A stretch of DNA of 47,435 nt. Source: an uncultured Pseudomonadales bacterium. GTDB lineage: Bacteria; Pseudomonadota; Gammaproteobacteria; Pseudomonadales; IMCC2047. The DNA lies in assembly GCA_947258415.1 (NCBI GenBank), contig CAMYIF010000005.1, positions 1 through 47,435 on the forward strand, read 5' to 3'. Each line of letters opens with the position of its first letter. Position 1 is the stretch's first letter. Position numbers and translations under genes: made by a program. The notes below the pieces were generated by a model. That model was given only the letters and a program-made list of their open reading frames with translations. It was not told the origin of the DNA and ran no database searches. Positions 20,089-35,914 of this stretch are shown piece by piece.

Positions 20089-21603
20089 ATGAGCTTAGCC
20101 ATTATTTATTCGCGGGCAAAATACGGAATAGATGCCCCTCTGGTCACCGTAGAGACTCATTTATCGAACGGCTTGCCGAGTGTGTCCATTGTCGGCTTGC
20201 CAGAGGCCGCCGTTAAAGAAAGCAAGGATCGGGTGCGCAGCGCGATAATCAATTCGCACTTCGAATTTCCTGCGCGGCGCATCACTATCAACCTGGCGCC
20301 GGCCGATTTGCCCAAGGAAAGCGGGCGTTTTGACCTGGCAATAGCAATCAGTATTCTGGCAGCCTCTGGCCAAATCTCGAACAAACAACTCGAAAATTAC
20401 GAATTTTTGGGAGAACTTGCGCTTACCGGAAGTCTTCGGAAGGTTCAAAGCGCTTTACCTGCATCACTGCAATGCGCCAGCGAGCAACGGGTTTTGTTTA
20501 TCCCGAAAATGAACGCCAGCGAGGCCAGCCTGCCGGAAAAGGCGCGCGTGTTGGCGGTTAGTCATTTGCTCGATGTTTGCGCGCACCTTGACGGCCGGCA
20601 AACGCTCGAAGATTTTCATCCCTGCATGGAGTCTTCTCCGGCAGTCAGCAATCTCGACCTGAATGAAATAAAGGGACAATTCCAGGCAAAACGCGCGCTG
20701 GAAATTACCGCTGCGGGTGGCCACAACCTGCTGCTTATCGGACCCCCCGGCACGGGTAAAACAATGATCGCGTCCAGGCTACCAACCATTCTTCCAGAGT
20801 TGTCAGAAAAAGCAGCGATGGAGGTGGCAACAATAGGTTCCTTAACCAACCGGGTATTTTGTCCGTCTAACTGGCGGACACCGCCGTTCAGGTCCCCGCA
20901 TCACACTGCCTCGGCAGTTTCACTGGTCGGTGGTGGCAGCAACCCGAAACCCGGAGAAATTTCGCTGGCACACAATGGTGTCCTGTTCCTGGATGAACTG
21001 CCCGAATTTGATCGCAAGGTCCTTGAAGTGCTACGCGAGCCCATTGAAGCCGGTGAAATTATTATTTCTCGCGCAAATCACCAGGCAAGGTTTCCGGCCA
21101 GGTTCCAACTGATTACCGCCATGAACCCGTGCCCGTGCGGTTACCTTGGCGACGCGAAAAGCAGTTGCCGTTGTACCCCTGACAAGATCAGGCGTTACCG
21201 GCAACGCATTTCGGGTCCATTGCTCGACCGCATCGACATGCACCTGGAGGTGATGACAAATACCCGGGAATTATTAACCGATGGCATGGACCTGGAAGCA
21301 TCAAGCGCTGTGGTAAAAAGTAGAGTAATCGATGCCCGGCAAAGGCAAATCGAACGCCAGGACTGCATTAACAGCGATTTGACCATCAAGGAGATTGAAA
21401 GGGTCTGCAAACTTGGCGCGGAAGATACCGATCTGCTGAGGCAGGCAATCGATAAACTTAACCTTTCAGCCCGGGCGTATCACCGAGTACTCAAAGTCGC
21501 TCGTAGCATTGCCGATTTAGCCAACTCTGAGCTGATAAAAAGCATTCATTTAATGGAAGCTTTAGGCTATCGGAAAATGGACAGGATGAACGATTATTAC
21601 TAG
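20089..21603 (+). CDS. comM: ComM/YifB family Mg-chelatase-like AAA+ ATPase
   Basis: 504 residues. The N-terminal ChlI-like domain is at about 20-145 (GLPSVSIVGLPEAAVKESKDRVRSAI). The AAA+ core has Walker A GPPGTGKT at 218-225, Walker B GVLFLDELPEF, and the C-terminal Mg-chelatase extension has NPCPCGYLGD, CRCTP and LSARAYHRVLKVARSIADL. ComM is a hexameric helicase that extends branch migration during natural transformation. Together with type IV pilus genes in this window it hints at competence, though ComM also occurs in non-competent species. The stop overlaps the opposite-strand gene by 4 bp. Confidence 0.93.
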   Translation: MSLAIIYSRAKYGIDAPLVTVETHLSNGLPSVSIVGLPEAAVKESKDRVRSAIINSHFEFPARRITINLAPADLPKESGRFDLAIAISILAASGQISNKQLENYEFLGELALTGSLRKVQSALPASLQCASEQRVLFIPKMNASEASLPEKARVLAVSHLLDVCAHLDGRQTLEDFHPCMESSPAVSNLDLNEIKGQFQAKRALEITAAGGHNLLLIGPPGTGKTMIASRLPTILPELSEKAAMEVATIGSLTNRVFCPSNWRTPPFRSPHHTASAVSLVGGGSNPKPGEISLAHNGVLFLDELPEFDRKVLEVLREPIEAGEIIISRANHQARFPARFQLITAMNPCPCGYLGDAKSSCRCTPDKIRRYRQRISGPLLDRIDMHLEVMTNTRELLTDGMDLEASSAVVKSRVIDARQRQIERQDCINSDLTIKEIERVCKLGAEDTDLLRQAIDKLNLSARAYHRVLKVARSIADLANSELIKSIHLMEALGYRKMDRMNDYY

Positions 21604-23348
21604 CCGGTTACCGGCTGGATCTGTGCCTGCATTTTTTCTTTTTGCTTTAACAGGCTCTTGCAAATATTACTGAATGGAATGGCCTCCTGGTAAAAATAAC
21701 CCTGCACCTGGTCGCAATCGTTTTCACGAAGCAGGGCCAATTGCTGTAAATTTTCTACGCCCTCCGCAATCACATGCATGCCCAGGTTATGTGCCAGGTT
21801 AATAATGGCTTTGACAATCACGGCATCACCCGCCTCATTGACGGCATTCTGGACAAAACTTTTGTCTACTTTTAGCGCAGTAATCGGCAGGCCTTGAAGA
21901 TGGGCAAACGATGAATACCCCGTGCCAAAATCATCCAGCGAAAAGTGCACACCCAGGTTACTCAAATCGTCCATACAGCGACGCGTTTCTCCTTCGCTGG
22001 CCATCACCGCCGTTTCTGTTAACTCGAATTCGAGGAAGCGGGCGTCAACCTGGGTTTTTTTAATTATCCTGGAAACTGTTTCTTTTAATTTTTTGTCCTG
22101 GAACTGGCGAAAAGATAGATTGACGGCGATTCGTACGAAAAAGCCCTGGTCCTGCAAATATTTAAGGCCCAGGCAAGCTTGATGAATCACCCAGTAACCC
22201 ATGGAAACAATTAACCCCGACTCCTCTGCCAGCGGGATAAATTCGTCAGGCGTCAACATACCCCGGTCCGGGTGCTGCCAACGTATTAAACCTTCCATGC
22301 CGACAATTTCGCCACTGTCTATATCTACCCGCGGCTGAAATAACAGGCGAAACTCGTTGCGTCTCAGGGCACGCCTGAACTCGGCCTCCATAACCAGTTG
22401 ATTGGACGCATTCGTGCTTAATTCACGCGAATAAAAACAAAAACTCGATCCCTGCTCTTTTTTTGCCTGGCTGACAGCAAGGTTAGCTGCCCGCATCAGT
22501 GCTTCAGCGTTCTGGCCACTGGTCGGGTAAAAAGCGATGCCGATACTGCTGGTTAAATATACCTGGTCACCGGGCACGGTGTAGGGTTTACCAAGCTCGT
22601 CGCTAATCTGGTGCACCATCCTCAGGACATCTGACTCTTCCATCACACCTTCGAGAATAATGGCAAACTCATCACCGCTATTACGCGCCAGGCTGTCACT
22701 TTTTCGAATACAGGATTGCACCCGATCGGCCGCAGTCCGGATCACTATGTCACCGGCTTCACGCCCGTAAGTATCATTGACTCCCTTGAATTTATCCAGA
22801 TTCAAGGCAAGCAAAACTACTTTTTGTCGCGATCGTTCCGCCCTTTGTAACGCATGGGTAAGGCGATCATTGAACAGTGTCCGGTTGACCAGGCCCGTCA
22901 GGGCATCGTAATGATCGTGATAATCGAGTTTGACTTGCGCGTCTTTTAACTGCAGGACATAGCGCAGGGAGCGCTCGAGCGAGATAACATCCAGTGAACC
23001 CTTATCGAGGTAATCGGCAGCACCTGCCTTGATCAACGAAGAACCCAGGGCAGCGTCCATGTCAGAGCTGACAATAATAATTTGCGCCGAGGGGTTAAGT
23101 GATTTAACTTCGCTGAAAAAATCCGTATCGCCTTCAGTACCCAGGTAGTACTCGGTAATAATTATATCGTACGGCTGACTGCTCAATTTTCTGAGTGCCT
23201 TGCCAACGGTGCGACACCAGGTCAGCTTGTGGGTGAGGCCGTCAATCTGGCGGAGAGTATAATCCAGATGCAGTTTCTCGGAGTGCTGCTCGTTGACAAG
23301 TAAAATGCGAACCTGGTCGCCCTGTAAACACTGCTCTAGTAAGCCCAT
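21600..23348 (-). CDS. Receiver-GGDEF-EAL cyclic-di-GMP protein with degenerate receiver
   Basis: 582 residues. A receiver domain (about 12-130) has Glu66 in place of the phospho-accepting Asp (DIIITEYYLG) and Asn19-Glu20 in place of the acidic pair; the conserved Lys (DYLDKG) remains. GGDEF domain about 145-305: the active site is SGDEF at 224-228, with an RxxD inhibitory site (Arg215-Asp218) at the right distance. EAL domain about 325-575: EGL at 353-355, DDFGTGYSS and VIAEGVEN are present, so phosphodiesterase activity is plausible. It probably adjusts cyclic-di-GMP without phosphorylation control. No signal peptide or membrane segment. It is convergent with comM. Confidence 0.9.
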   Translation of the reverse strand: MGLLEQCLQGDQVRILLVNEQHSEKLHLDYTLRQIDGLTHKLTWCRTVGKALRKLSSQPYDIIITEYYLGTEGDTDFFSEVKSLNPSAQIIIVSSDMDAALGSSLIKAGAADYLDKGSLDVISLERSLRYVLQLKDAQVKLDYHDHYDALTGLVNRTLFNDRLTHALQRAERSRQKVVLLALNLDKFKGVNDTYGREAGDIVIRTAADRVQSCIRKSDSLARNSGDEFAIILEGVMEESDVLRMVHQISDELGKPYTVPGDQVYLTSSIGIAFYPTSGQNAEALMRAANLAVSQAKKEQGSSFCFYSRELSTNASNQLVMEAEFRRALRRNEFRLLFQPRVDIDSGEIVGMEGLIRWQHPDRGMLTPDEFIPLAEESGLIVSMGYWVIHQACLGLKYLQDQGFFVRIAVNLSFRQFQDKKLKETVSRIIKKTQVDARFLEFELTETAVMASEGETRRCMDDLSNLGVHFSLDDFGTGYSSFAHLQGLPITALKVDKSFVQNAVNEAGDAVIVKAIINLAHNLGMHVIAEGVENLQQLALLRENDCDQVQGYFYQEAIPFSNICKSLLKQKEKMQAQIQPVTG

Positions 23349-24409: not shown

Positions 24410-24486
24410 GCGCCCGTAGCTCAGCTGGATAGAGTAGTGGCTTCCGAAGCCATTGGTCGCAGGTTCGAATCCTGCCGGGCGCGCCA
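24410..24486 (+). tRNA. tRNA-Arg (anticodon CCG)
   Basis: A 77-nt cloverleaf. Acceptor GCGCCCG/CGGGCGC, D-stem GCTC/GAGT, anticodon stem GTGGC/GCCAT with loop TTCCGAA (anticodon CCG at 24444-24446), T-stem GCAGG/CCTGC with loop TTCGAAT, discriminator G and an encoded CCA. It reads CGG codons. Confidence 0.95.
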
Positions 24487-24550: not shown

Positions 24551-24627
24551 GCCTCCGTAGCTCAGCTGGATAGAGTAACCGGCTTCGAACCGGTTGGTCG
24601 GGAGTTCGAATCTCTCCGGGGGCGCCA
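24551..24627 (+). tRNA. tRNA-Arg (anticodon UCG)
   Basis: A 77-nt cloverleaf, 64 bp after the first tRNA-Arg and probably co-transcribed. Acceptor GCCTCCG/CGGGGGC (one T-G pair), D-arm identical to its neighbour, anticodon stem ACCGG/CCGGT with loop CTTCGAA (anticodon TCG at 24585-24587), T-stem GGGAG/CTCTC (one G-T pair), discriminator G and encoded CCA. It would read CGA and perhaps CGG. UCG is not the usual gammaproteobacterial solution for CGA, which is read by inosine-modified ACG. Confidence 0.9.
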
Positions 24628-24693: not shown

Positions 24694-27600
24694 CTAGACT
24701 GTGTTCTTGTTAAAAACCAGGAATGATTTTTCAAATTCTTCCGCAGAAACAGGCTTGCCGAGATAATAACCCTGCATGTAGTTACATTTTTTCTCGGTTA
24801 AATATTCTTTCTGCAATTTGGTTTCAACACCTTCGGCAATGACTTTTACGCCCAGGCTATGCGCCAGGGTGATAATGGTGGTAACAATGTCGCCATCGAC
24901 TTTATCGCTGGTGATATTCGATACGAAGGCGCGGTCAATTTTCAACAGGTCGATGGGGAATTTTTTCAAATAATTCAGCGATGAATAACCCGTACCGAAA
25001 TCATCAATTGCCAGCATAACCCCCATATTTTTAAGCTGTTTAAGCGTTTCAATAACCTGTTCAGCGTTTTTCATAATGGTGCTTTCGGTAATCTCCAGCT
25101 CCAGGAAATGGGCAGGCAAACCGGTCTCATTGAGTATTTCTGCAACGTGAGTCGTTATATCACCTTTATCGAGCTGACGCCCGGCCAGGTTGACCGCTAT
25201 CCTGATCGGTGACTGACCCTTGTCCAGCCACTGCTTCAACTGCGCGCAGGCTTCTCTCATAACGAATTCACCCAATTCAAAAATCTGCCCCGTTTCTTCG
25301 GCCAGTGGTATGAACTCCATTGGGCTAACCAGGCCGCGCTCCGGATGTTGCCAACGCACCAGCGCCTCCATGCCGATCAACTCCCCGGTTTGAAGGTCTT
25401 CCTGTGGTTGGTAATAAACAACCATTTCATTTCGGGCAATGGCGCCGCGCAAATCAATTTCTATCCCCAGGCGACGCGCAACATCTGCTTCCATTTTTTG
25501 TTCATAAAACTCGTAACAATTTCCTTTTTCCTTGGCTCGGTACATAGCGATGTCGGCATTTTTTAGCAATACACCAATTTCTTCTCCGTCGTTCGGGTAT
25601 AACGAAATGCCGATACTGGTTTTTACGTGCATTTCCTTGCCCAGGAAAACGAACGGTCGCGACAGGGTATCGTGAATTTTTGAAGCAATTTTCTCTACGG
25701 CCGAGAATGACTTTATCCTGTTCAATACGATGGTGAATTCATCGCCGCCAAACCTTGAGACAATATCCCCTTGCCTGAGGCATCGTTGCAGGCGCTCGGC
25801 GACGACCTTGAGCAACAGGTCACCGGCATCATGACCGAAGGTGTCGTTCACCAGCTTGAAGCGATCCAGATCAAGAAACAGGATCGCAGCCATATTTTCT
25901 TCTGACATCTCTTCGAGAGTTTTCGTTAATTGCTCGGTAAACAGTGTCCGGTTTGGCAAACCGGTAAGGGTATCGTTATAGGCGAGCTTAAGCACATGTT
26001 TTTCAGCTCGACTGGCCTGCAGAATACGCGCGATACGTTTGCGAAGTACGGCAAAATTAACCGGTTTGGATATGTAATCGGTCGCCCCCGCCGCAAAGGC
26101 CCGACCAATGGATGTTTCATCGTTAAGGGAGGTAATGATCAGCACCGGGACATGCTTGCCGCCAGCCAGGGACTGAATTTCCGAACAGGCCTTGAAGCCA
26201 TCCATTTCAGGCATAATGGCATCCATGAGTACAAGTTCAGGCAAAAAGCGTTCACAGTAAGCCAGTGCCTGCTCTCCATTGTTTACATGGTCGACACGAT
26301 ATCCATCCTTTTCCAGCACTTTTCGCATGGCAAAACGCATGCCGCGATCATCGTCGACTATTAGTATTCTCTGCTGGCTATGATCCATGGCCGGGCTTTC
26401 GCTAATACCATAGAGCAGCTCATACGACTGATCCTGTTCGGCAGGATCTTTATCGGGACGGACTTTTCTTTCCAGTGCAAGCTGCAATAGTCCACACTCA
26501 GCGATAACCTTATCCATTAATTCTTCAACGCCCTGGTTATCACTCGCCCTGCTTTTAGCTTCGAGCTCGGCGCATACTTTGGTGAGGCGATGCGCACCGA
26601 AATTACCGGCAGCGCCCTTGATGCTGTGGGCAAAATCTCCGCTGGCCTGACTATCCTTAACCTTGACAGCATCTTTCAGTGAACGAATATAGGAAGGCAT
26701 ATCGTCAAGGAATACCTTGACCATTGTTGGCAGGGCAGCGCCAATTTGCTTGCGCAATTCATTGAAAACCTGCACGTCGATTACTTCATTGTCTACCTCT
26801 TTTACATCACAGACTGCGACCTCATTTTCCGAACTGATATTCCCGGTTTCGGCGCTAACAAATTCTTTAACTTCAAGCCACTTGCTCAGGGTAGCCCGCA
26901 GGCACTCAAGTTTTAAAGGTTTGGGCAAATAATCGTTCATTCCAACAGCAAGGCATTTTTTGCTTTCGCCTTTTTGAACATTCGCGGTCATGGCAACAAT
27001 CGGCACCCTGGAAGAATCGGTTTCAAGGCGCCTGATTTGCGAGGTCGCCTCATAACCATCCATTTCTGGCATATGGCAGTCCATGAGAATCAGGTTGAAT
27101 GTTTCCCTGGAAAGAATTTCCAGTGCTTCGCGTCCATTATTTACATAAGCCGATTTACACCCCAGTCGCTCCAGCATTCCGCTTGCGACTTGTTGATTGG
27201 CTCGATTATCTTCGACAATCAATATCTTGTTGCCGCCAAAAGTTTCTATTTTACTCGTATTCGCATTCCCTCCATCGACCCGAGTATCCTTATCTTCAAC
27301 AAATTCAAGTTTGCGATACAATGCATCGATTTTGTCGGCCAGGTCTTTAAACAACACCGGCTTGGACAGGAAGCCGGCAATATTTAAACGGTGCGTGTCT
27401 TCGTAGGTTGGATTAACCCTGTTGACCATCATCAGGACTTTAGTATTTGCAATCGAAGGCTCGTTAACAATCAGGTGCGCAAGGTCAGAGCCTTTCAGGC
27501 CGGGCATGACTTCGTCCATCAATACAAGGTTATAATTTTGATGATTTGCTGCCGACAATCGGAGTTTATCCAGGGCAACCGCACCATTCTCCGCGATATC

Positions 27601-29232
27601 GTAGGGAATTTTTAGTCGTTCCAGCATGCCGCCCAGGTAACGACGGTTGAGCGGGCTATCGTCGACTACAAGCACGCGCAACTTCTCCGGCTCGGATATC
27701 GTTTCGTGGCTGGGCACAGGCGCGTCAACCTGGACCGGAACCGGCAGGGTAAACCAGAATTCGCTGCCTTTACCCTGTTCGCTTTCAACGCCGATTTCAC
27801 CCCCCATAAAATGTATAATTTGCCTCGATATAGCCAACCCCAATCCCGTCCCGCCATACTTCCGCGTGGTAGAACCGTCTGCCTGGGAAAAAGCTTCAAA
27901 TATTTTTTCCCTGACTTGTTCCGTCATCCCTATACCTGTATCGGTAACCTTAAATAAAAGCTCGAGATGATCCTCGTGCTTCTGTTTCAGACTGACCTCG
28001 ATTCCCACTTCACCCCGATCGGTAAACTTAAGCGCATTGCCAACCAGGTTAATTAATACCTGGCGCAAGCGTCCAATGTCGCATTGCAAGTTGACGGGAA
28101 CCTCGCTGCCCAGGATATAAGCGATATCGATATCCTTACGTTGCGCCTGGGTACTAAGCAATAAGATAATATCCTCGAGCAGGGCATCCAGATCAAACGA
28201 CACATTTTCAGAATTAATTTTCCCCGAGTCGATCTTGGAGAAATCGAGAATATCGTCAATTAAAAGCAACAATGATTCTGCGGAATCACTGGCAATATCA
28301 ATATACTCGGTCTGCTTTTCGTTTAAGCCCATGTCTTCGAGCAACTCGAGCATACCCAGCACGCCGTTTAACGGAGTGCGCAATTCATGGCTTACATTTG
28401 CAGCGAATTCGCCTTTAACGCGCGCCGCCTCGAGCGCCAAATCCCGGGTTCCCCTGAGCTCCTCTTCGCGTGCGTCCAGCACGTTCATCATCTGGTTAAA
28501 CGCAATTTCCATTTCAATGACGTCGCGCGTACCCTTGATATCGGCCCGGATATCTTTTTCACCCTCTTTGGCGCGGCCCATGATGGTTGCCAAGTCCCTT
28601 ATCGGGTTAGTTATACGCGTGGTAATTGCTAAAAGTATAACAAGCAGCAATGCGGCAAGGGCCAGCGATACCAGCAGGTTGTAACGGAAAATATCTGCTT
28701 CCATACGATGTATGGATTCTTTGCCCAGCACAATTCGCACATAACCGACCAGTTCGGCCTGCGCCTCCTGGCCTAAAAAGGGTGAATCATCTTCAACCTG
28801 GGTACCGGTATAAACGGGCGAAACAAAATGCCAATGCTCGCTGTTTTCCGAGACAAGGCTCAATGAATCTGGCCAACTCGAATCTTGTTCCAGTTGGTTA
28901 ACTTTTTTGTCGGTTCCGTAGAGGAGTTTTTTCTCGTTATCGAAAATGCTTACTTCTACCAGGTCTGGAAAAGCAAGCATGGTGTCAGCTATGTACTTGG
29001 CTTCTGATTCGCTGAGGTAGAGCAGGGAAACGCGACTGCGTTCTGCAGTCGTTTTAGTCAGGTTTAAACCTTCCTGCAGCAATCGATCGCTAACCGAGCG
29101 AGTGGACAGCGTTGTCGTCACCATAGTAGTGATTAACGCAAGCAGTAAAATCCCGATGCTAAAGGTCCAAACCAGAAGCTTTCTGAATCCTACGCGATTA
29201 ATCCATTTATTTGGTAACGATTTCATGGTCAT
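24694..29232 (-). CDS. Hybrid sensor kinase with three receivers, HPt, GGDEF and EAL domains
   Basis: 1512 residues in a single frame. Order: TM1 about 19-42, a periplasmic sensor about 43-182, TM2 about 184-205, HAMP about 205-258, HisKA with His282 (SHELRTPLN), HATPase about 385-500 (N399, DTGIGM, GGTGLGLAI), receiver 1 (Asp573), receiver 2 (Asp718), HPt with His869 (AHSIKGAAGN), receiver 3 (Asp1004), GGDEF (1162-1166, RxxD site Arg1153-Asp1156) and EAL (1289-1291). All phospho-sites look intact. This is a BarA/TorS-like phosphorelay whose terminal receiver is fused to a cyclic-di-GMP synthase/hydrolase, so signal and output are one chain. Its start overlaps the stop of the binding-protein gene by 4 bp. 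No signal is known; the genetic link to a periplasmic binding protein and TonB receptor suggests a ligand sensed through that protein. Confidence 0.93.
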   Translation of the reverse strand: MTMKSLPNKWINRVGFRKLLVWTFSIGILLLALITTMVTTTLSTRSVSDRLLQEGLNLTKTTAERSRVSLLYLSESEAKYIADTMLAFPDLVEVSIFDNEKKLLYGTDKKVNQLEQDSSWPDSLSLVSENSEHWHFVSPVYTGTQVEDDSPFLGQEAQAELVGYVRIVLGKESIHRMEADIFRYNLLVSLALAALLLVILLAITTRITNPIRDLATIMGRAKEGEKDIRADIKGTRDVIEMEIAFNQMMNVLDAREEELRGTRDLALEAARVKGEFAANVSHELRTPLNGVLGMLELLEDMGLNEKQTEYIDIASDSAESLLLLIDDILDFSKIDSGKINSENVSFDLDALLEDIILLLSTQAQRKDIDIAYILGSEVPVNLQCDIGRLRQVLINLVGNALKFTDRGEVGIEVSLKQKHEDHLELLFKVTDTGIGMTEQVREKIFEAFSQADGSTTRKYGGTGLGLAISRQIIHFMGGEIGVESEQGKGSEFWFTLPVPVQVDAPVPSHETISEPEKLRVLVVDDSPLNRRYLGGMLERLKIPYDIAENGAVALDKLRLSAANHQNYNLVLMDEVMPGLKGSDLAHLIVNEPSIANTKVLMMVNRVNPTYEDTHRLNIAGFLSKPVLFKDLADKIDALYRKLEFVEDKDTRVDGGNANTSKIETFGGNKILIVEDNRANQQVASGMLERLGCKSAYVNNGREALEILSRETFNLILMDCHMPEMDGYEATSQIRRLETDSSRVPIVAMTANVQKGESKKCLAVGMNDYLPKPLKLECLRATLSKWLEVKEFVSAETGNISSENEVAVCDVKEVDNEVIDVQVFNELRKQIGAALPTMVKVFLDDMPSYIRSLKDAVKVKDSQASGDFAHSIKGAAGNFGAHRLTKVCAELEAKSRASDNQGVEELMDKVIAECGLLQLALERKVRPDKDPAEQDQSYELLYGISESPAMDHSQQRILIVDDDRGMRFAMRKVLEKDGYRVDHVNNGEQALAYCERFLPELVLMDAIMPEMDGFKACSEIQSLAGGKHVPVLIITSLNDETSIGRAFAAGATDYISKPVNFAVLRKRIARILQASRAEKHVLKLAYNDTLTGLPNRTLFTEQLTKTLEEMSEENMAAILFLDLDRFKLVNDTFGHDAGDLLLKVVAERLQRCLRQGDIVSRFGGDEFTIVLNRIKSFSAVEKIASKIHDTLSRPFVFLGKEMHVKTSIGISLYPNDGEEIGVLLKNADIAMYRAKEKGNCYEFYEQKMEADVARRLGIEIDLRGAIARNEMVVYYQPQEDLQTGELIGMEALVRWQHPERGLVSPMEFIPLAEETGQIFELGEFVMREACAQLKQWLDKGQSPIRIAVNLAGRQLDKGDITTHVAEILNETGLPAHFLELEITESTIMKNAEQVIETLKQLKNMGVMLAIDDFGTGYSSLNYLKKFPIDLLKIDRAFVSNITSDKVDGDIVTTIITLAHSLGVKVIAEGVETKLQKEYLTEKKCNYMQGYYLGKPVSAEEFEKSFLVFNKNTV

Positions 29233-30170
29233 CTATCAGGAAAAATCAAATTAAATTCCCGCATTTGGGAGCGGGTTATTTTTAACTTCAAATGCTCGGC
29301 CGTTCGCACGTTGACGGCAATTAATAGATTTTCCAATGCCTCGACTGTTTTACTTTCACCCCTGGCAACAAGTCCGGCCTTTTTTGACAGGCTTTTACCC
29401 ATCTGGATATTATCCGGGAACAGTGAAAATAATGCGCCACGCTTTACATGCGACGGGTTGCTCGAAAAAACAACCGTGTGCCGGTCCCATGCCTCACTCA
29501 TCAGCCTGGGTAACATGCCTTTTTCGTCCAGGGTTGGGTCCGCCTGTAATAGCCAGATTGCATCAGCCCCGCTTACCTGTTCACTCAGGAGTTTCTGGTA
29601 GGTTTTTGCAGCGTCTCGTGCACCATCGGCCGGCACAGTGACCAACTCCAGATCCAGTTCTTTTGCAGCCTTACTGGCCAATCTAACAAGCCAGCCGTTG
29701 CTTTCTTCGTGGTATACAACAGAAACACGACGAATATCAGGCACCAATTCCTTGAGCTTTGTAAACAGCATTTTCGGCGAAGGTGCCAATGATATCCCGA
29801 CTATTCCATGCTTAATATCCTTATCGGATAAAAGCGCTGCGCCTGTGACAACATTTAAACCGGTGGGTAACTGAGTTACAACAGATTTGACTCGGCTACC
29901 GAGAGAAATGACAACCTCGGGATTTGCTTTATTTAACCAGCTTTCCAGCTCTTCGATATCATCGCCTGCCCGAATTGCGTACATCCGGACCTTGCCATTT
30001 GCCTCGCGCGAAATACCCTTGATGATATCGCCAAAAATACTACGATAGGGCTCGCGCACATCAGGGTATAACACGGCCAGTGTTGGCCCCCTGGCGTTAG
30101 CGCTTAAAGACAATATCAAAGCCGCTATAATACATAACGTTTTGAATGTCAGCCCAATTTTATTCTTCAA
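29229..30170 (-). CDS. Periplasmic ABC_sub_bind-family binding protein
   Basis: 313 residues with a signal peptide (about 1-27, hydrophobic core ending SLSANARG). The rest is a two-lobed periplasmic binding fold of the PF04392-like type: LAVLYPDVREPYRSIF, VVISLGSRVKSVV, VVTGAALLS, VSVVYHEESNGWL, DAIWLLQADPTLD and VVFSSNPSHVKRGALFSLFPD. No permease or ATPase gene is nearby, so it is more likely a sensor ligand-presenting protein than part of an importer. It overlaps the TonB receptor stop and the kinase start by 4 bp each, implying translational coupling and near-equal production of the three proteins. The ligand is unknown. Confidence 0.85.
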   Translation of the reverse strand: MKNKIGLTFKTLCIIAALILSLSANARGPTLAVLYPDVREPYRSIFGDIIKGISREANGKVRMYAIRAGDDIEELESWLNKANPEVVISLGSRVKSVVTQLPTGLNVVTGAALLSDKDIKHGIVGISLAPSPKMLFTKLKELVPDIRRVSVVYHEESNGWLVRLASKAAKELDLELVTVPADGARDAAKTYQKLLSEQVSGADAIWLLQADPTLDEKGMLPRLMSEAWDRHTVVFSSNPSHVKRGALFSLFPDNIQMGKSLSKKAGLVARGESKTVEALENLLIAVNVRTAEHLKLKITRSQMREFNLIFPDR

Positions 30171-32290
30171 CCCCGTTCCCTTTTCCGTAACTCGGATAAA
30201 TTCTTTTTATTAGGTACACAAGAGCACTTTCTGACTTCGGCGAACACACTGCGTCCTGCCTGAGGTAAATCACCGGGTATAGCAACTGTTCCTGTGAGGG
30301 GGTCGTAGAGCGATGGCTCCAGCACCTTGTCATCGGTCAAATTGCGAATCGAAACAGCAACGCTGAGGCCATACGCCAGTTTTTTGCCCCTGAGGGTAAG
30401 GTCAATGGTCGTATAGTCATCAATATCACTACGCATATCACCTGAAGCACGTTTTCTGTCCATCACATGATTGAGCTGGGTATTGATCGACCAATAGTGC
30501 GATAACTCAATATTGGCCTGCAGGTAAATTTGATGTTGCGGTGCATTTGCCGCATCGGTATCGGTCTGTTCATCCTCCGATTTCTGATAGGCGTAGTTAC
30601 CTTTTATTTTCAGCCTGCGCATTGCATCCCAATCAAATTCAAGCTCAAGACCATGGCCAGTCTGGTTGCCGGAATTCTGGGCTACCGGCGTAAACCGGAT
30701 GATGTCCAGGAATTCGTAATAAAACAGGTTCATGCCAAACCGCAGGTCGCTGGTATGGTTGTAGTCAAATGCCAGTTCGTAGGTATCGATCCTTTCAGGG
30801 TCCAGGTTGGGATTACCGATGGCAATCGGGTTGGCCTGGTTAAACTGTTCGGCAAAGGAGGGCGCCCGAAATGCCGAACCGTATAAAAACTTGCTGGTCA
30901 GGTCGATGGTCGTATCCCAAACCAGCGCGAGACGTGGATTGGTCGTGGTACCAAAATCAGAATAATCATCAATTCTCAAACCGGCTGTCAGTGACCAGTC
31001 GCGGACAAAATCCCATTCGTCCTGAACAAAAACATACCTGACTGTTCGGTCCTCTTCCCGGTTAAAAATGGCCGCGCCACTGACGGGCATCACTGAACCC
31101 AGAAATGGCGGCGGGAACCCTGCACCAAAGTTTTTAGATTCTTCGATTCGGTATTGATCCAGCAGGTGATAGCCGGTGCCAATGCGAATCACATGATTTT
31201 CAAAACCGGTATAGAAGGTCGACAGGTCAAAACGGTAGTGCCGCTCGTAGTAGTCGGGGTTCCCGATAACCCCGTTAGGGAATGTGCCAAAGGCACCCGG
31301 AGGGTAGAGTTCCAGGTCCAGTTGCGTGGCCACATCATAAAAGCTGAAGCGGGTTTCCAGCTCCCAGTGTTCGTAGATTTCCGGATTTAGGTAAGTCACA
31401 TCCAGGTTGAACCGGTCGCTATTGCCTTCACCTTCGGTGTCCAGCGCTTGCGCTGCGCCACTACCGGTTTCAATATCTCGCCGTCCCTGGTAGCCCAGGC
31501 GAATACGCCAATACTCCTTGCTCAGGTCGATACGGGCATCGATGGATTCCCTGCCGGTATTGACACCACCAGGGGCCAGCGAGGCAGATGTTGCGAACAG
31601 GCCGTCAAAAGCAGTCTGGGCATCGGCGCCTATTTTTTCGTCATGACCTGAGGTATCGAGCAATTCCAGCGAAAATGCCACATCCCAACCTCTGACTTCA
31701 GTCCCGTAAAGGGCCCATGCTCGATGCTCATCGAAGCTGCCCGCCGAAATACCGGTTTCAACGCCATTAATTTCGTCGGCTGTTTTGGTGACAATATTGA
31801 TGGTACCGGCAAAGGCATCGGCGCCGTAGACGGCAGAACCCGGTCCGCGGATAACCTCAATCCTGGAAATATTTTCAACCGGCATCCCGCCCCAGGCTTC
31901 ACCCCTGTTGCCAAAAAGCAACTGGGTGGTTGGTATACCATTGATCAGCACAAGTACTTGCGGGTTAAATTCGGAATAGATTCCCCGGAAAGTAAAAATC
32001 GGCTCATAACCGGCGCCTTTCCTGGCGACATGAACGCCGGGCACCGATTCGAGTACTTCTGTTATGTCCCTGGCTCCCGTCTGCTGAATTTCTTCGGCCG
32101 TAATCAGCGTGGTAACCGCTGGCGCTTTTGAAATTAGTTGTTTTCTGCCAGTAGCGATGGAAACAAAATCCTCATCGCCGTACGAAAGTAATAAATCATT
32201 TCCTTCTACAACCTGATTTCCATATCCGTATTGGGAAAAACCGAGCAGGCAAATAATGCCACCCAAAAAGCACGGAATGTGATTTTTCAT
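30167..32290 (-). CDS. TonB-dependent outer-membrane receptor
   Basis: 707 residues. A signal peptide (about 1-24) is followed by a plug domain at about 50-170: PAVTTLITAEEIQQTGARDITEVLESVPGVHV-type sequence, VLVLINGIPTTQL, ISRIEVIRGPGSAVYGADAFAGTINIVTK. The beta-barrel covers the remainder, with LTAGLRIDDYSDFG, FRAPSFAEQFNQANP and NLDPERIDTYELAFDYN in the usual places. The last barrel strand (AGRSVFAEVRK) is followed by an unusual polar tail of about 20 residues containing two Cys instead of ending in an aromatic residue. The substrate is not deducible. A GAGGTGAGGG ribosome site precedes the ATG. It is first of a three-gene coupled set. Confidence 0.92.
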   Translation of the reverse strand: MKNHIPCFLGGIICLLGFSQYGYGNQVVEGNDLLLSYGDEDFVSIATGRKQLISKAPAVTTLITAEEIQQTGARDITEVLESVPGVHVARKGAGYEPIFTFRGIYSEFNPQVLVLINGIPTTQLLFGNRGEAWGGMPVENISRIEVIRGPGSAVYGADAFAGTINIVTKTADEINGVETGISAGSFDEHRAWALYGTEVRGWDVAFSLELLDTSGHDEKIGADAQTAFDGLFATSASLAPGGVNTGRESIDARIDLSKEYWRIRLGYQGRRDIETGSGAAQALDTEGEGNSDRFNLDVTYLNPEIYEHWELETRFSFYDVATQLDLELYPPGAFGTFPNGVIGNPDYYERHYRFDLSTFYTGFENHVIRIGTGYHLLDQYRIEESKNFGAGFPPPFLGSVMPVSGAAIFNREEDRTVRYVFVQDEWDFVRDWSLTAGLRIDDYSDFGTTTNPRLALVWDTTIDLTSKFLYGSAFRAPSFAEQFNQANPIAIGNPNLDPERIDTYELAFDYNHTSDLRFGMNLFYYEFLDIIRFTPVAQNSGNQTGHGLELEFDWDAMRRLKIKGNYAYQKSEDEQTDTDAANAPQHQIYLQANIELSHYWSINTQLNHVMDRKRASGDMRSDIDDYTTIDLTLRGKKLAYGLSVAVSIRNLTDDKVLEPSLYDPLTGTVAIPGDLPQAGRSVFAEVRKCSCVPNKKNLSELRKRERG

Positions 32291-32375
32291 TAACCCTCAC
32301 CTCAACTTACTGGGTATTACACCGAATATTTACAAACTTATTTTTATAGCTGTTTCATTAGTTTAGTCGGTATTT

Positions 32376-33188
32376 CTAGTTTTCCCATTTCCTTTGAGGT
32401 TTTCCTTCGTATGAAATGCGCTTGCACCTGAGCGGGAAGAAGGTTCCGGCGGGTTTATCAACGGCATCGATGTAACAGGCCATCATGCCAGCAGAATATA
32501 TCACAGCGCCCATTCGATAAAACTCTTTAGCTGTCAGCCCCTGATCTGCATATAACGCTGATGCAAAACCAGCGATATTGAGTTTCGTTCTATAGCGCAT
32601 TTTGATAAGTATTTTTTCTATTTCAAAGGCGAGCTTTACATGCGGGCCGTCGGAAGCACCCAACTCTTCCGCCAACCTTAATGCAACAGGAACCCTTTCA
32701 TCATTATTGGTTATTGGCCGACCAAAACCATAGGGCACGTTTTTACTAGCATCTATTTCATGCTTAACGACATCTACCAGTTCCTTGCCTTCGTCCACTA
32801 CTAATGTTTTAACCCGTGTAATAAAGTCCGCAGCAGCAAAACTTGCTTGCCCTCCGAAAAATTTGCTTTCAGATATCGCGGTTCCACAGGCTATTGCTAA
32901 CATACCCGTTGTTTTGGCAGATCCCGATATTGCCGCAACCCGATTGTTCCAGATTCTCGGTTCGGGGAAGCTGGTGCAAATGGCCCAGGTTCGGCTAAAA
33001 AGCTCGATTTGTTTTTTGCTAAGAAACTTGCCGGTGATGCTAAAAAACCAGATTTCAACCCAGTCTTTATCAAAAAATTCGGTAAACACATCCAGGCCCC
33101 TGAACACCACCCGTTCGCCCGCAAACCAGGCACCCATATCGGTTTCCCAGTTGTCTTCTCTCTCGATTAAAGTATCCGGTCCTTTCAT
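32376..33188 (-). CDS. Citrate-synthase-fold protein lacking the catalytic triad (B subunit)
   Basis: 270 residues resembling the citrate synthase/citryl-CoA lyase superfamily, shorter than a full citrate synthase. Matches to family motifs are recognisable but altered. LHG(G/L)A is FFGGQASF (His to Phe). GFGHRVY is GFGRPITNNDER (His to Arg). NVD is NIAGF (Asp to Ala). The C-terminal FPLRCKRISYEGKPQRKW keeps the typical Tyr-x-Gly ending. Standard Claisen condensation or citryl-CoA cleavage is therefore doubtful. It overlaps the preceding homologue by 4 bp, so the two probably form a heteromer. Other readings are a regulatory subunit or a CoA-ester enzyme with new chemistry. Confidence 0.7.
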   Translation of the reverse strand: MKGPDTLIEREDNWETDMGAWFAGERVVFRGLDVFTEFFDKDWVEIWFFSITGKFLSKKQIELFSRTWAICTSFPEPRIWNNRVAAISGSAKTTGMLAIACGTAISESKFFGGQASFAAADFITRVKTLVVDEGKELVDVVKHEIDASKNVPYGFGRPITNNDERVPVALRLAEELGASDGPHVKLAFEIEKILIKMRYRTKLNIAGFASALYADQGLTAKEFYRMGAVIYSAGMMACYIDAVDKPAGTFFPLRCKRISYEGKPQRKWEN

Positions 33189-34036
33189 TTGTTTATCTTT
33201 TCGAGATTATCTTTAACAGGTCCGGGATCGTTGGAAAGCTTTAACCCATCGGCAAAAAACGGGTATTTAGCCAGGCCATTATGCCTTTGTTCAAGCGCAT
33301 GCGCGCCTGCGCCGGGTAGTCGCAGAATCATAAACAGCATTTCAGCCTGCTCGTCCGTGAAGCCCAAATCGATAAAAGCAGCTGCGATTACTCCTACCAT
33401 AGCCAAGGGATTTCCGCTAAAGCCTTCAACGGATTCCCTGTTTTGTTTTAACCACTGCAATTGGCCTGCTTCCCCGATCTCGATCGACGACAGGTAATCC
33501 AGGGTTTGCTTAACGGGTGTTGAACAACTGCTACCGTAAGGATCAAAACCCGGGATATGCTCGATGTCCGGCCACGCTTTTACATCATCCTGTTTTTCAT
33601 AATTAGTCAGTTTATCCTGCCAAATTGCCAAATCCTTTCCACAGGTATTAATTAACCTGATGGCCAAAAACATTTCCCGGGCACCACCATATTGCCCGGA
33701 ACCGGGCCCAAGTGCGCCAATCAGGCAAGATGCAGCAATAGACCCACCTGCACCCCCGCTCATGGCAGCCCTGACACTTAGGTCGCGAGGCCCGGGATTT
33801 GCCAATGCTACGGCGACTCCTTCCAGAAGCTTTGTTTGAGTTTTTGAGGGTGGCTCAAGTTTGAAGAGAAGGTACAGATACTCGACCCAGCTGACTTTTC
33901 CCAGCAGGTCGCCGTAGACGTCAAAACCCGAGCAATAGCAGGCTTGTGCAGCGAAGGGATTATCGGGTTCGGGGATTTCTTGCCAGATTTTACTGTGAAT
34001 GACATCTTTTTGCCTAGGCTTGCCCGCGTCCGTCAT
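33185..34036 (-). CDS. Citrate-synthase-fold protein lacking the catalytic triad (A subunit)
   Basis: 283 residues, paralogous in fold to the next gene. Family landmarks: SCLIGALGPGSGQYGGAREM (LHGGA position, His to Tyr), IPGFDPYGSSC (GFGH position, His to Pro), EGFSGNPLAMVGVIAAAF (NVD region, no matching Asp seen) and MILRLPGAGAHALEQR, close to the RxxGxxAHxxEQ helix of citryl-CoA lyases. As with its partner the three catalytic positions are changed. It begins 6 bp after the ThDP enzyme stop and overlaps the B subunit by 4 bp, arguing for a three-protein functional unit. Superfamily call firm, function unknown. Confidence 0.72.
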   Translation of the reverse strand: MTDAGKPRQKDVIHSKIWQEIPEPDNPFAAQACYCSGFDVYGDLLGKVSWVEYLYLLFKLEPPSKTQTKLLEGVAVALANPGPRDLSVRAAMSGGAGGSIAASCLIGALGPGSGQYGGAREMFLAIRLINTCGKDLAIWQDKLTNYEKQDDVKAWPDIEHIPGFDPYGSSCSTPVKQTLDYLSSIEIGEAGQLQWLKQNRESVEGFSGNPLAMVGVIAAAFIDLGFTDEQAEMLFMILRLPGAGAHALEQRHNGLAKYPFFADGLKLSNDPGPVKDNLEKINK

Positions 34037-34042
34037 CGCGTT

Positions 34043-35914
34043 TTATTTCAATCCATTTATGCGGGTAGCCAAGGGTGGCACTTCGTCAGCATCGATAACG
34101 ACATCAATAACGGTTGGTCCATTGCGTTTCAATATCGCCTCGATGTTCAGTTCGTGTAGTTCATCAGGCTTGGTAATCTGGTAACCTGGAATGCCCATGG
34201 ATTCTGCCAGTTTTGCGTAATTAGCAGCGGGCAATTGATGGCCGATGCTTGCAGATTTATTCATGATTTGTCCATGCTTGACCATACCCAGTGACGAGTC
34301 ATTCATAATCAGGAAGGTCACTTTCAGGTTATTTTGTAAGGCCACGGTGATTTCATTGCCGTACATCAGGAAGCCGCCGTCACCAATGATGCAAACTATG
34401 TGTTCATCCGGATTTGCCAACGACGCGCCAATGGCACTACCCACCGACCATCCCATCGAGCAGAAATCTGTGCACACCTGGAACAGCCCGCCATGTTGAT
34501 GCCGCCGACCGTCTTCATACCAGCGATCAAGTGATCGACGCTGACCCAACCGCCGGTCGAAAGGGTTCAGGTAATGTATTGCCCAGGCAAGGTTGTTACC
34601 TGCGTCTGCAAAGTATTTTGTATGAGCAGGGAAGATTTTCGTCAACTGGTGCATCAGCCACTGGGGTTTGATCGGCACCGAGTCATCAAAGATTTTTCGA
34701 GGCTCATCCAGGGTAAAATGCATGATATCATCGTATTTGGAATCATCTTTTTTGGCATTTTCCAGCCGTTCGCTTAATTCAATACCACTTTGAAGGCTGG
34801 TGTTTTGGGTAATGCCCTGGATAATCAGTTCATCCAGCACCTTGCTGAAAATGGAGAGAATATTTCCCCTGACATGCAGTTTTGCCATCGGTGTGCGAAT
34901 AAGGTTTGCCTCATCCGCTTCCACGTGGATAAGCCGATCATTCAGCAGTGTGTCTGCATCCCAGGCATTGCTGTTGAATTCGCCCAAAGAGGTTCCCACG
35001 GCGACCACGGTTTCAACTTCGGGATCGGCAAGCGCTTCATTGGCGCTTTTATGTCCGGCGAAACCAATCACACCCTTAAACTGCGGGTGGTAAGGGCTGA
35101 TAAAGCTTTTAGCATCGGGCATGGCGACAACCGACGAGCCCAGCAGACAAGCAATATCTATAATTAAACTTGCCGCGTCCCTGGTGCCGACGCCAAGAAC
35201 AAATACAACCTTTTTACCCTTCGACAACTGTTTGCAGAGCTCTGTTACAGCCTCTTTATCCTGCATTAACGGTCGCTTAACGGCTTTGTTTAAATCATAG
35301 GACGGCCCGTGTTGAGGCAAGCTTGCCTTTAAAATATCAGAAGGGATACTTAAATGCACTGGACCGTAGGGTGGGCGCAGGGCTGTCATAATGGCCGAAA
35401 TTAATTTGTTTTCAAGCTGGCCGATATGACTGACGAAGGAATTATAGAGTGTACAAAATTGATACATACCGACCACATTGACGCCGGTATCGCCTGACTC
35501 CTGCAAGGCTTTACGGCCAAACTTATCATGGACAGTTTGTGGCGTAATCACCAAGAGGGGAACGTTGTTCTCGTAAGCCGAAGCAACGCCGGTAAGCATG
35601 TTGGTTGCCCCCGGGCCTGTGGTTGAGCAACATACACCCAGATGGCCCGAGTTTTTTGCATAGCCACTAGCCATGAATGCAGCGCCGGTTTCGTGCCGGG
35701 CGATGATTGAGCGAATGCCATTGCTTGCTTCGCTTCGGGCCAGGGCATTGTAAAGCGCTTCTATTGCGCCACCCGGTATGCCAAACACATACTCGACATC
35801 GATTTGCTCAAGGTATTGGAGGATCAGGTCAGCGACGCGGACTTCCAGTTCGACACTTGACACGCTCGGGTCATCAAGAGACTTTTTGGCCAGGCCAAGC
35901 GCGTTTATACCCAT
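34043..35914 (-). CDS. Thiamin-diphosphate-dependent enzyme, acetolactate-synthase-like
   Basis: 623 residues with the three-domain layout of the acetohydroxyacid synthase/oxalyl-CoA decarboxylase family. The N-terminal pyrimidine-binding domain has VFGIPGGAIEALYNAL and the activating Glu75 (RHETGAAFMASGYAK). The C-terminal domain has the ThDP/Mg motif GDGG...N from 511 with Asn538. It carries out decarboxylation and/or carboligation of a 2-oxo acid or a 2-hydroxyacyl group; the substrate is not apparent. No small regulatory subunit (ilvN) is adjacent, which argues against ordinary valine synthesis. It leads an operon with two citrate-synthase-fold proteins, suggesting C-C bond chemistry on a CoA ester. 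Confidence 0.85.
   Translation of the reverse strand: MGINALGLAKKSLDDPSVSSVELEVRVADLILQYLEQIDVEYVFGIPGGAIEALYNALARSEASNGIRSIIARHETGAAFMASGYAKNSGHLGVCCSTTGPGATNMLTGVASAYENNVPLLVITPQTVHDKFGRKALQESGDTGVNVVGMYQFCTLYNSFVSHIGQLENKLISAIMTALRPPYGPVHLSIPSDILKASLPQHGPSYDLNKAVKRPLMQDKEAVTELCKQLSKGKKVVFVLGVGTRDAASLIIDIACLLGSSVVAMPDAKSFISPYHPQFKGVIGFAGHKSANEALADPEVETVVAVGTSLGEFNSNAWDADTLLNDRLIHVEADEANLIRTPMAKLHVRGNILSIFSKVLDELIIQGITQNTSLQSGIELSERLENAKKDDSKYDDIMHFTLDEPRKIFDDSVPIKPQWLMHQLTKIFPAHTKYFADAGNNLAWAIHYLNPFDRRLGQRRSLDRWYEDGRRHQHGGLFQVCTDFCSMGWSVGSAIGASLANPDEHIVCIIGDGGFLMYGNEITVALQNNLKVTFLIMNDSSLGMVKHGQIMNKSASIGHQLPAANYAKLAESMGIPGYQITKPDELHELNIEAILKRNGPTVIDVVIDADEVPPLATRINGLK

Follow-up and report, generated by a model that had tools for sequence, protein, structure and literature searches.

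A six-gene operon joining a TonB-dependent receptor, an orphan binding protein and a cyclic-di-GMP hybrid kinase: a probable small-molecule signalling system

INTRODUCTION

Contig CAMYIF010000005.1 of an uncultured Pseudomonadales bacterium (GCA_947258415.1) carries, in the 47,435-nucleotide stretch analysed here and termed the window, a six-gene operon that is probably best explained as a small-molecule signalling system. It encodes three enzyme-like proteins, a TonB-dependent outer-membrane receptor, a periplasmic binding protein of Pfam family PF04392 and a membrane hybrid histidine kinase whose putative output is cyclic-di-GMP (c-di-GMP), the messenger through which bacteria change from swimming to settling and back. 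The binding protein has no transporter, its gene is followed by that of a membrane sensor in nearly all related loci, and in some lineages a non-homologous protein stands in its place. That the module is conserved and its transporter absent we hold to be practically certain.

For most c-di-GMP enzymes the sensory inputs and ligands are unknown. Here a large family of these enzymes is accompanied by a chain of receptors through outer membrane, periplasm and inner membrane. The enzymes that produce the ligand are probably encoded alongside, and the input can therefore be tested directly by offering the enzyme product to the neighbouring binding protein. If the proposal is true, it adds a TonB-powered route from a self-made signal to c-di-GMP control, in which energised uptake of that signal is coupled directly to the motile/sessile switch through an exchangeable periplasmic receptor.

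RESULTS

Layout of the operon

By its layout the unit is a six-gene, 11.2-kb operon on the minus strand (24694-35914), in the order thiamine pyrophosphate (TPP)-dependent enzyme, two citrate-synthase-like proteins, TonB receptor, binding protein and hybrid kinase. An earlier note on this DNA had described only its second half (24694-32290) and had stressed 4-bp overlaps among the last three genes. All three open reading frames (ORFs) were found on the minus strand at these coordinates, and both overlaps are present: TTGA at 30167-30170, where the TonB receptor gene (30167-32290) ends and the binding-protein gene (29229-30170) begins with a TTG start codon, and ATGA at 29229-29232, where the binding-protein gene ends and the kinase gene (24694-29232) begins. 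The stress on the overlaps is not supported, since relatives mostly lack them, the gap from binding-protein gene to sensor gene being mostly 1-50 nt.

Directly upstream of the receptor gene lie three further co-directional genes (32376-35914), for the TPP-dependent enzyme (34043-35914) and for the paralogous citrate-synthase/citryl-CoA-lyase-like proteins A (33185-34036) and B (32376-33188). A gap of 6 nt separates the TPP gene from A, A and B overlap by 4 bp, and 85 nt lie between B and the receptor gene. A promoter and terminator scan gave signals at chance level and was uninformative.

A binding protein without a transporter

The sole Pfam match of the binding protein is PF04392 (ABC_sub_bind), at 39.1 bits against a gathering cut-off of 25.9, and no lipobox was found in it. 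Its AlphaFold model (mean pLDDT 93.7) is most similar in a fold search to the PF04392 structures 3lkv, 3lft (with L-tryptophan) and CD0873; lower matches are general periplasmic-binding-protein folds including LuxP and XylFII, and these reflect no more than the shared fold. The protein thus has its Pfam family, fold and closest solved structures in common with the TrpX-type ABC binding proteins. Those proteins serve ABC importers, however, whereas the window subfamily comes without permease or ATPase, and against the TrpX family model the window protein scores 40.6 for a cut-off of 390.

The draft genome of the organism (2.49 Mb, 229 contigs, 96% complete) was searched for a partner. PF06541, a permease family, gave zero matches, and a profile made from the permeases of PF04392-type transporters gave one weak match, in a LivHMGF branched-chain transporter, which was rejected as the partner because that transporter has its own binding protein. 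A cognate permease was likewise found in none of the 56 distinct loci of the window subfamily. The earlier note, which had described the protein as lacking permease and ATPase and had named the discovery of such a pair elsewhere, together with a kinase that responds without the protein, as a reason to abandon its reading, was right on this point.

In a first survey of 57 relatives, searched with PF04392, the high-scoring members adjoin a permease and an ATPase (L034-L038, L040), whereas many low-scoring ones either have a TonB receptor, a kinase or a GGDEF protein as neighbour or carry fusions. In distant relatives a PF04392-like domain is joined in a single polypeptide to GGDEF (L060, L064) or to a kinase (L062). 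Other PF04392 proteins have different surroundings. One 6.9-Mb genome (G037; L041, L042, L045, L046, L051, L055, L067) has eight matches, some in tandem and mostly without an adjoining kinase or permease, and the PF04392 proteins of two genomes (L048, L049) share large, conserved neighbours of 1157 and 834-851 aa in the same order, with no adjoining kinase or permease.

The TonB receptor

The receptor consists of Plug and beta-barrel domains only and is 41% identical to the receptor in the L071 version of the cluster. No STN signalling domain was found in it, and FecA-type signalling was rejected for this reason; there was also no FecR or ECF sigma factor among the neighbouring genes scanned. 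Its likely role, judged from domains and gene context, is to deliver the ligand to the periplasm.

Three TonB receptors were found in the draft genome, two of them adjoining PF04392 proteins (chance about 2e-5); the third looks BtuB-like and lies beside a CobC-like phosphatase. The genome carries three PF04392 proteins, and the two outside the window are also in module-like settings. On contig C136 (L004) a LuxR-type regulator, a TonB receptor and a PF04392 binding protein are followed by the contig end, and on contig C119 (L005) a PF04392 binding protein adjoins an sCache_4 hybrid kinase. These two loci represent a second module type, with a separate response regulator, and similar layouts occur in L052, L056, L057 and L069.

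The hybrid kinase and its sensor

The kinase (1512 aa) has the Pfam domain order HisKA-HATPase-REC-REC-Hpt-REC-GGDEF-EAL, and the same architecture occurs in relatives. Its N-terminus (28456-29232) comprises a transmembrane helix, a periplasmic cache-type sensor (about residues 40-182), a second transmembrane helix and a HAMP-like region. HisKA (residues 273-337) and HATPase_c (residues 385-499) follow at 27736-28416, then the REC1, REC2, Hpt and REC3 phosphorelay at 26032-27675 (limits of REC1 and REC2 approximate) and the GGDEF and EAL domains at 24751-25983. All catalytic motifs are present: H, N and G of the kinase, the three phospho-Asp residues, the Hpt His, an intact GGDEF with its RxxD I-site, and the EAL motifs. 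The relay is thus predicted to be active, and the c-di-GMP level to move in one direction or the other with it.

Homologues of the sensor match sCache_4/HAMP, the sCache_4 domain being of the BarA/GacS type. A sensor profile matches the histidine kinase sensor 5o7j, and the AlphaFold model of the sensor (pLDDT 87) has its best matches among PAS/cache-like folds. The binding protein covaries most with this periplasmic part: from distance matrices under label permutation, with a TPP/kinase control as the only phylogenetic correction, the partial r is 0.47-0.56 for the sensor, and lower for the TonB-dependent receptor (TBDR; 0.26-0.34) and the kinase core (0.19). With the TPP tree controlled the values are 0.47, 0.26 and 0.19, respectively. 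Adjacency and co-variation agree with a LuxPQ-type contact between binding protein and kinase periplasmic domain, and the binding protein is very likely a co-receptor of the membrane sensor.

Conservation across genomes

In an order-wide survey of 392 genomes the window subfamily of the binding protein (alignments A2 and A4) and the TPP enzyme were each traced. The enzyme accompanies the binding protein in 35/38 genomes and is present in 16 of the 354 genomes that lack the binding protein (p=4e-34); by genus the figures are 14/15 and 8/127 (p=6e-13), spread over 13 families; these p-values ignore shared ancestry within genera, an effect that the genus table lessens and does not remove. For a pattern search beyond the order the 33-member binding-protein alignment was too variable, and a single-sequence scan of genome contigs with the binding protein found nothing; the TPP-enzyme alignment, used instead, reached Betaproteobacteria (Dechloromonas, Collimonas, Rhodoferax, Azoarcus, Gallionella), Methylococcaceae, Colwellia and Rheinheimera. 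Looser versions of the cluster were seen in Desulfobulbaceae and Nitrospinota. Since the carriers include named organisms beyond the order (Dechloromonas hankyongensis, Collimonas humicola, Rheinheimera sp. A13L and others), the module, as judged from these sequences, is no artefact of a single metagenome assembly.

Among the 56 subfamily loci the membrane sensor is the next gene after the binding protein in 53, and in L171 and L172 it lies <400 nt away. The TonB receptor is within the fetched stretch in 49; the seven loci without it are on short contigs or close to a contig boundary, and in three of these genomes (G004, G034, G329) the TPP, citrate-synthase-like and TonB receptor genes are on another contig. 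The TPP enzyme is found in 50/56, a figure biased by the fact that L162-L199 were fetched through that enzyme, the order-wide survey giving the unbiased one. An apparent fusion of TPP enzyme and binding protein in L171 was rejected as an out-of-frame extended ORF.

These counts bear out the conserved adjacency of the three families that the earlier note had proposed, which goes far beyond what chance would give, and the rarity of co-occurrence in relatives that would have spoken against it was not what we found. They do not bear out its 'fixed ratio' of the three, as only 23/56 loci have the receptor gene immediately upstream in the same orientation. Elsewhere the receptor gene accompanies the TPP and citrate-synthase-like genes, being divergent or separated from the binding-protein gene by those enzyme genes. 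From gene order, the near-invariant pair is that of binding protein and sensor.

c-di-GMP output and its wiring

GGDEF-EAL domains are fused to the sensor in 25 of the loci, many with the architecture of the window protein at 1490-1540 aa. Two of these 25 (L176 and L169, Gallionella-type) are kinase-less, L176 reading sensor-HAMP-PAS-GGDEF-EAL. In 19/56 loci a separate GGDEF-EAL gene is present in the stretch, mostly for a REC-REC-GGDEF-EAL protein encoded beside the cluster and accompanied by a short kinase, an arrangement that is a split form of the window's relay. The GGDEF motif is intact in all 25 fused proteins and in 23/23 separate ones. In the proteins from Hahella and in some of those from Marinobacter the EAL motifs are degenerate, a sign that c-di-GMP is made there and not broken down. 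The wiring variants end in GGDEF-EAL, and that the output is c-di-GMP, as the earlier note had read from the window, is highly probable on this comparison.

Replacement of the binding protein by YfiR/HmsC

The Marinobacter and Hahella versions of the cluster retain a TPP enzyme of the same family, the citrate-synthase-like pair and the TBDR, but have YfiR/HmsC (PF13689), a CHASE8 kinase and a REC-GGDEF-EAL protein instead of the binding protein and cache sensor. CHASE8 is known from YfiN-type cyclases. YfiR and the kinase form a single polypeptide in Cellvibrio and L145. A non-homologous periplasmic protein thus appears to do the job of the binding protein between the same receptor and output, and this exchange strongly supports the periplasmic co-receptor role of the PF04392 protein. 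YfiR/HmsC-like proteins, free or kinase-fused, were seen in TPP/citrate-synthase-like/TonB clusters at L142, L184, L186, L187, L188, L178 and L145; such clusters may help to settle which ligand YfiR-type proteins sense.

Enzyme genes and the candidate ligand

The TPP-dependent enzyme (PF02776/PF02775/PF00205) belongs to the acetolactate-synthase/CybE-like acyloin synthase family. An NCBIfam ScyA-related subfamily is among its best matches, below cut-off, and a profile of 19 relatives has BbmA (8x3x) and CsmA (8x3z) as nearest PDB entries. CsmA and 'BpmA', probably the same protein as BbmA, are CybE homologues (PMC12395478), and CybE couples two alpha-keto acids to an alpha-hydroxy-beta-keto acid in furanolide biosynthesis (PMC12395478). 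By homology the window enzyme is of this CybE type. The next enzyme of the furanolide pathway, CybF, is a furanolide synthase of the beta-ketoacyl-ACP synthase III (KAS III) class (PMC8777810), and a CybF-type KAS III is absent from the window.

In its stead stand proteins A and B, two paralogues that nearly every cluster encodes together. The His/His/Asp triad of citrate synthase is not conserved in either (20 aligned members), and the H of GxGHR and the D of NVDG in 6hxp are replaced or absent; citryl-CoA lyase activity was rejected for want of these catalytic residues. The pair may be a new C-C bond-forming enzyme, because in L133 a KAS III-type protein takes its place, flanked by the TPP gene on one side and the TonB receptor gene on the other; in L156 and L198 a KAS III-type protein lies near the TPP gene. 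Tailoring-type genes vary by cluster, with a sulfotransferase in L071, L102 and L166, an O-methyltransferase in L185 and an SDR-family gene in L164, L165 and L170, as is usual for small-molecule pathways.

Candidate genes for the synthesis of a self-made ligand, such as a quorum-sensing system would use, are co-conserved, and on balance we favour, by a little, the view that the enzymes of the cluster make the ligand. It would be derived from an acyloin or alpha-hydroxy-beta-keto acid and might be furanolide- or butenolide-like.

DISCUSSION

Proposed mechanism and its alternatives

The explanation of the whole operon that we find fairly probable runs as follows. The cytosolic enzymes would, most likely, make the ligand; the ligand would leave the cell, and the TonB receptor would concentrate it, whether from the cell itself or from neighbours, into the periplasm. 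The transporter-less binding protein would pass nothing on and would instead dock, in a ligand-dependent way, on the periplasmic cache domain of the kinase, a step proposed because binding protein and sensor are a near-invariant pair and covary. The kinase would then relay phosphate via REC and Hpt to the last REC, setting the balance of GGDEF and EAL and so changing c-di-GMP.

Several observations weigh against this mechanism. Sixteen genomes have the TPP enzyme without this binding protein, some of them with YfiR and others with no recognised partner, and the co-variation test has the single phylogenetic correction given above. The TonB receptor gene is not always in the transcription unit of the binding protein, and 12/56 loci show no GGDEF-EAL gene over the stretch fetched, several of them, though not all, ending at contig edges. 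Neither an exporter nor an acyl-CoA ligase was recognised among the conserved genes of the cluster. Lastly, a self-made ligand passes the periplasm on its way out, and it is not obvious why a TonB receptor is needed; concentration of the ligand or the sensing of neighbours are possible roles.

The earlier note had instead supposed that a scarce ligand is imported to the periplasm only. In such a scheme the receptor would scavenge an outside compound (a metal chelate, an aromatic or something vitamin-like), the binding protein would sense it, c-di-GMP would respond, and the enzymes would use or convert something else or degrade the ligand. Scarce nutrients are the usual cargo of TonB receptors, lyases too have TPP and citrate-synthase-like folds, and the cluster lacks an exporter. 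Yet a catabolic enzyme in the cytosol would have little access to a compound imported by the receptor if no permease carries it over the inner membrane, which fits a self-made ligand; enzyme presence covaries with that of the binding protein over 13 families, proteins related to the TPP enzyme form acyloins in natural-product pathways (PMC12395478), and the citrate-synthase-like proteins lack the catalytic residues of a lyase. The supposition overlooks the co-conserved enzymes, and a self-made ligand is the more economical reading; we regard an environmental ligand as rather unlikely. Of the earlier interpretation, then, the orphan binding protein, the adjacency and, by comparison, the c-di-GMP output have stood, and the fixed ratio, the weight of the overlaps and the environmental ligand have not.

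More doubtful is a mechanism of envelope contact as in YfiBNR, with the binding protein (or YfiR) as a periplasmic repressor that the outer-membrane receptor would sequester or set free in response to envelope or redox state, without any small ligand. The replacement of binding protein and cache sensor by YfiR/HmsC and CHASE8 in Marinobacter and Hahella speaks for it, as does the YfiBNR-like three-layer layout, but it needs neither the co-conserved TonB receptor nor the enzymes, and the binding protein has retained a fold that in its relatives binds ligands, as TrpX does tryptophan; we judge it improbable. Ordinary ABC import, with permease and ATPase encoded elsewhere and the neighbouring kinase incidental, would agree with the founding PF04392 members, which are ABC transporter subunits, and with the permease and ATPase beside high-scoring relatives (L034-L038). 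Against the lack of a suitable permease in the genome and in all 56 loci, the sensor gene adjacent in nearly every locus and the PF04392-GGDEF and PF04392-kinase fusions of distant relatives (L060, L064, L062), it appears refuted as far as sequence allows, and we give it very little credence.

Beyond the operon itself, we tentatively suggest that Proteobacteria have a widespread and so far undescribed system of cell-to-cell signalling, in which a self-made furanolide- or butenolide-like signal would be taken up again through TonB and read by a periplasmic co-receptor (PF04392 or YfiR) and a kinase that sets c-di-GMP. The signal maker would be a CybE-type acyloin synthase with the repurposed citrate-synthase-like pair or with KAS III. 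No open-access paper was found on a TBDR-binding protein-kinase or TPP-citrate-synthase-like-TBDR cluster, in an exact-word search of an open-access subset, so that this absence is weak evidence.

Comparison with known systems

The system resembles NspS-MbaA, LuxPQ and YfiBNR in its mode of working yet probably belongs to none of them. It cannot be filed under NspS-MbaA or YfiBNR because the defining features tested for each fail. In NspS-MbaA, a polyamine sensor of Vibrio cholerae, the genes also overlap, and the ligand norspermidine is partly self-made (PMC8967002). As proposed for the window, a binding protein is read in the periplasm by a membrane GGDEF-EAL protein. NspS, however, is a polyamine-binding protein of the PotD type, not PF04392; MbaA has no kinase relay, and there is no TonB receptor or synthesis gene in the unit. 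The kinase-less gene layout of NspS-MbaA is met in the relatives L176 and L169.

YfiBNR and HmsCDE share the outer-membrane, periplasmic and inner-membrane layout ending in GGDEF. The window, in contrast, has PF04392 and a cache sensor in place of PF13689 and CHASE8, a TonB receptor where those systems have an OmpA-like lipoprotein, and in addition a kinase relay and enzymes in the operon. LuxP-LuxQ, TorT-TorS and XylFII-LytS likewise use a periplasmic-binding-protein fold as co-receptor of a kinase, and the LuxP/LuxQ signal is also self-made, but their binding proteins are of other families, they have no dedicated TonB receptor and no TPP-type enzymes, and their output is not c-di-GMP made inside the kinase. 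FecA/FecR/FecI also ties a TonB receptor to a regulatory output, whereas in the window the signal would go through a soluble binding protein and a kinase. With the furanolide pathways (cyanobacterin CybE/CybF; PMC12395478, PMC8777810) the clusters have in common the CybE-type TPP enzyme and, in L133, L156 and L198, a KAS III; the window differs in having the citrate-synthase-like pair and no CybF, ammonia lyase or CoA ligase.

Neighbouring features

Just past the 3' end of the kinase gene, on the plus strand, are two tRNA-Arg genes (24410-24486 and 24551-24627; anticodons ccg and tcg). Downstream of the operon the window also encodes a REC-GGDEF-EAL protein (21600-23348). A protein of the same domain composition, similar to it in size and layout, is encoded at L052 92-1858 in a related genome (G001), near a different TonB/binding-protein/kinase module.

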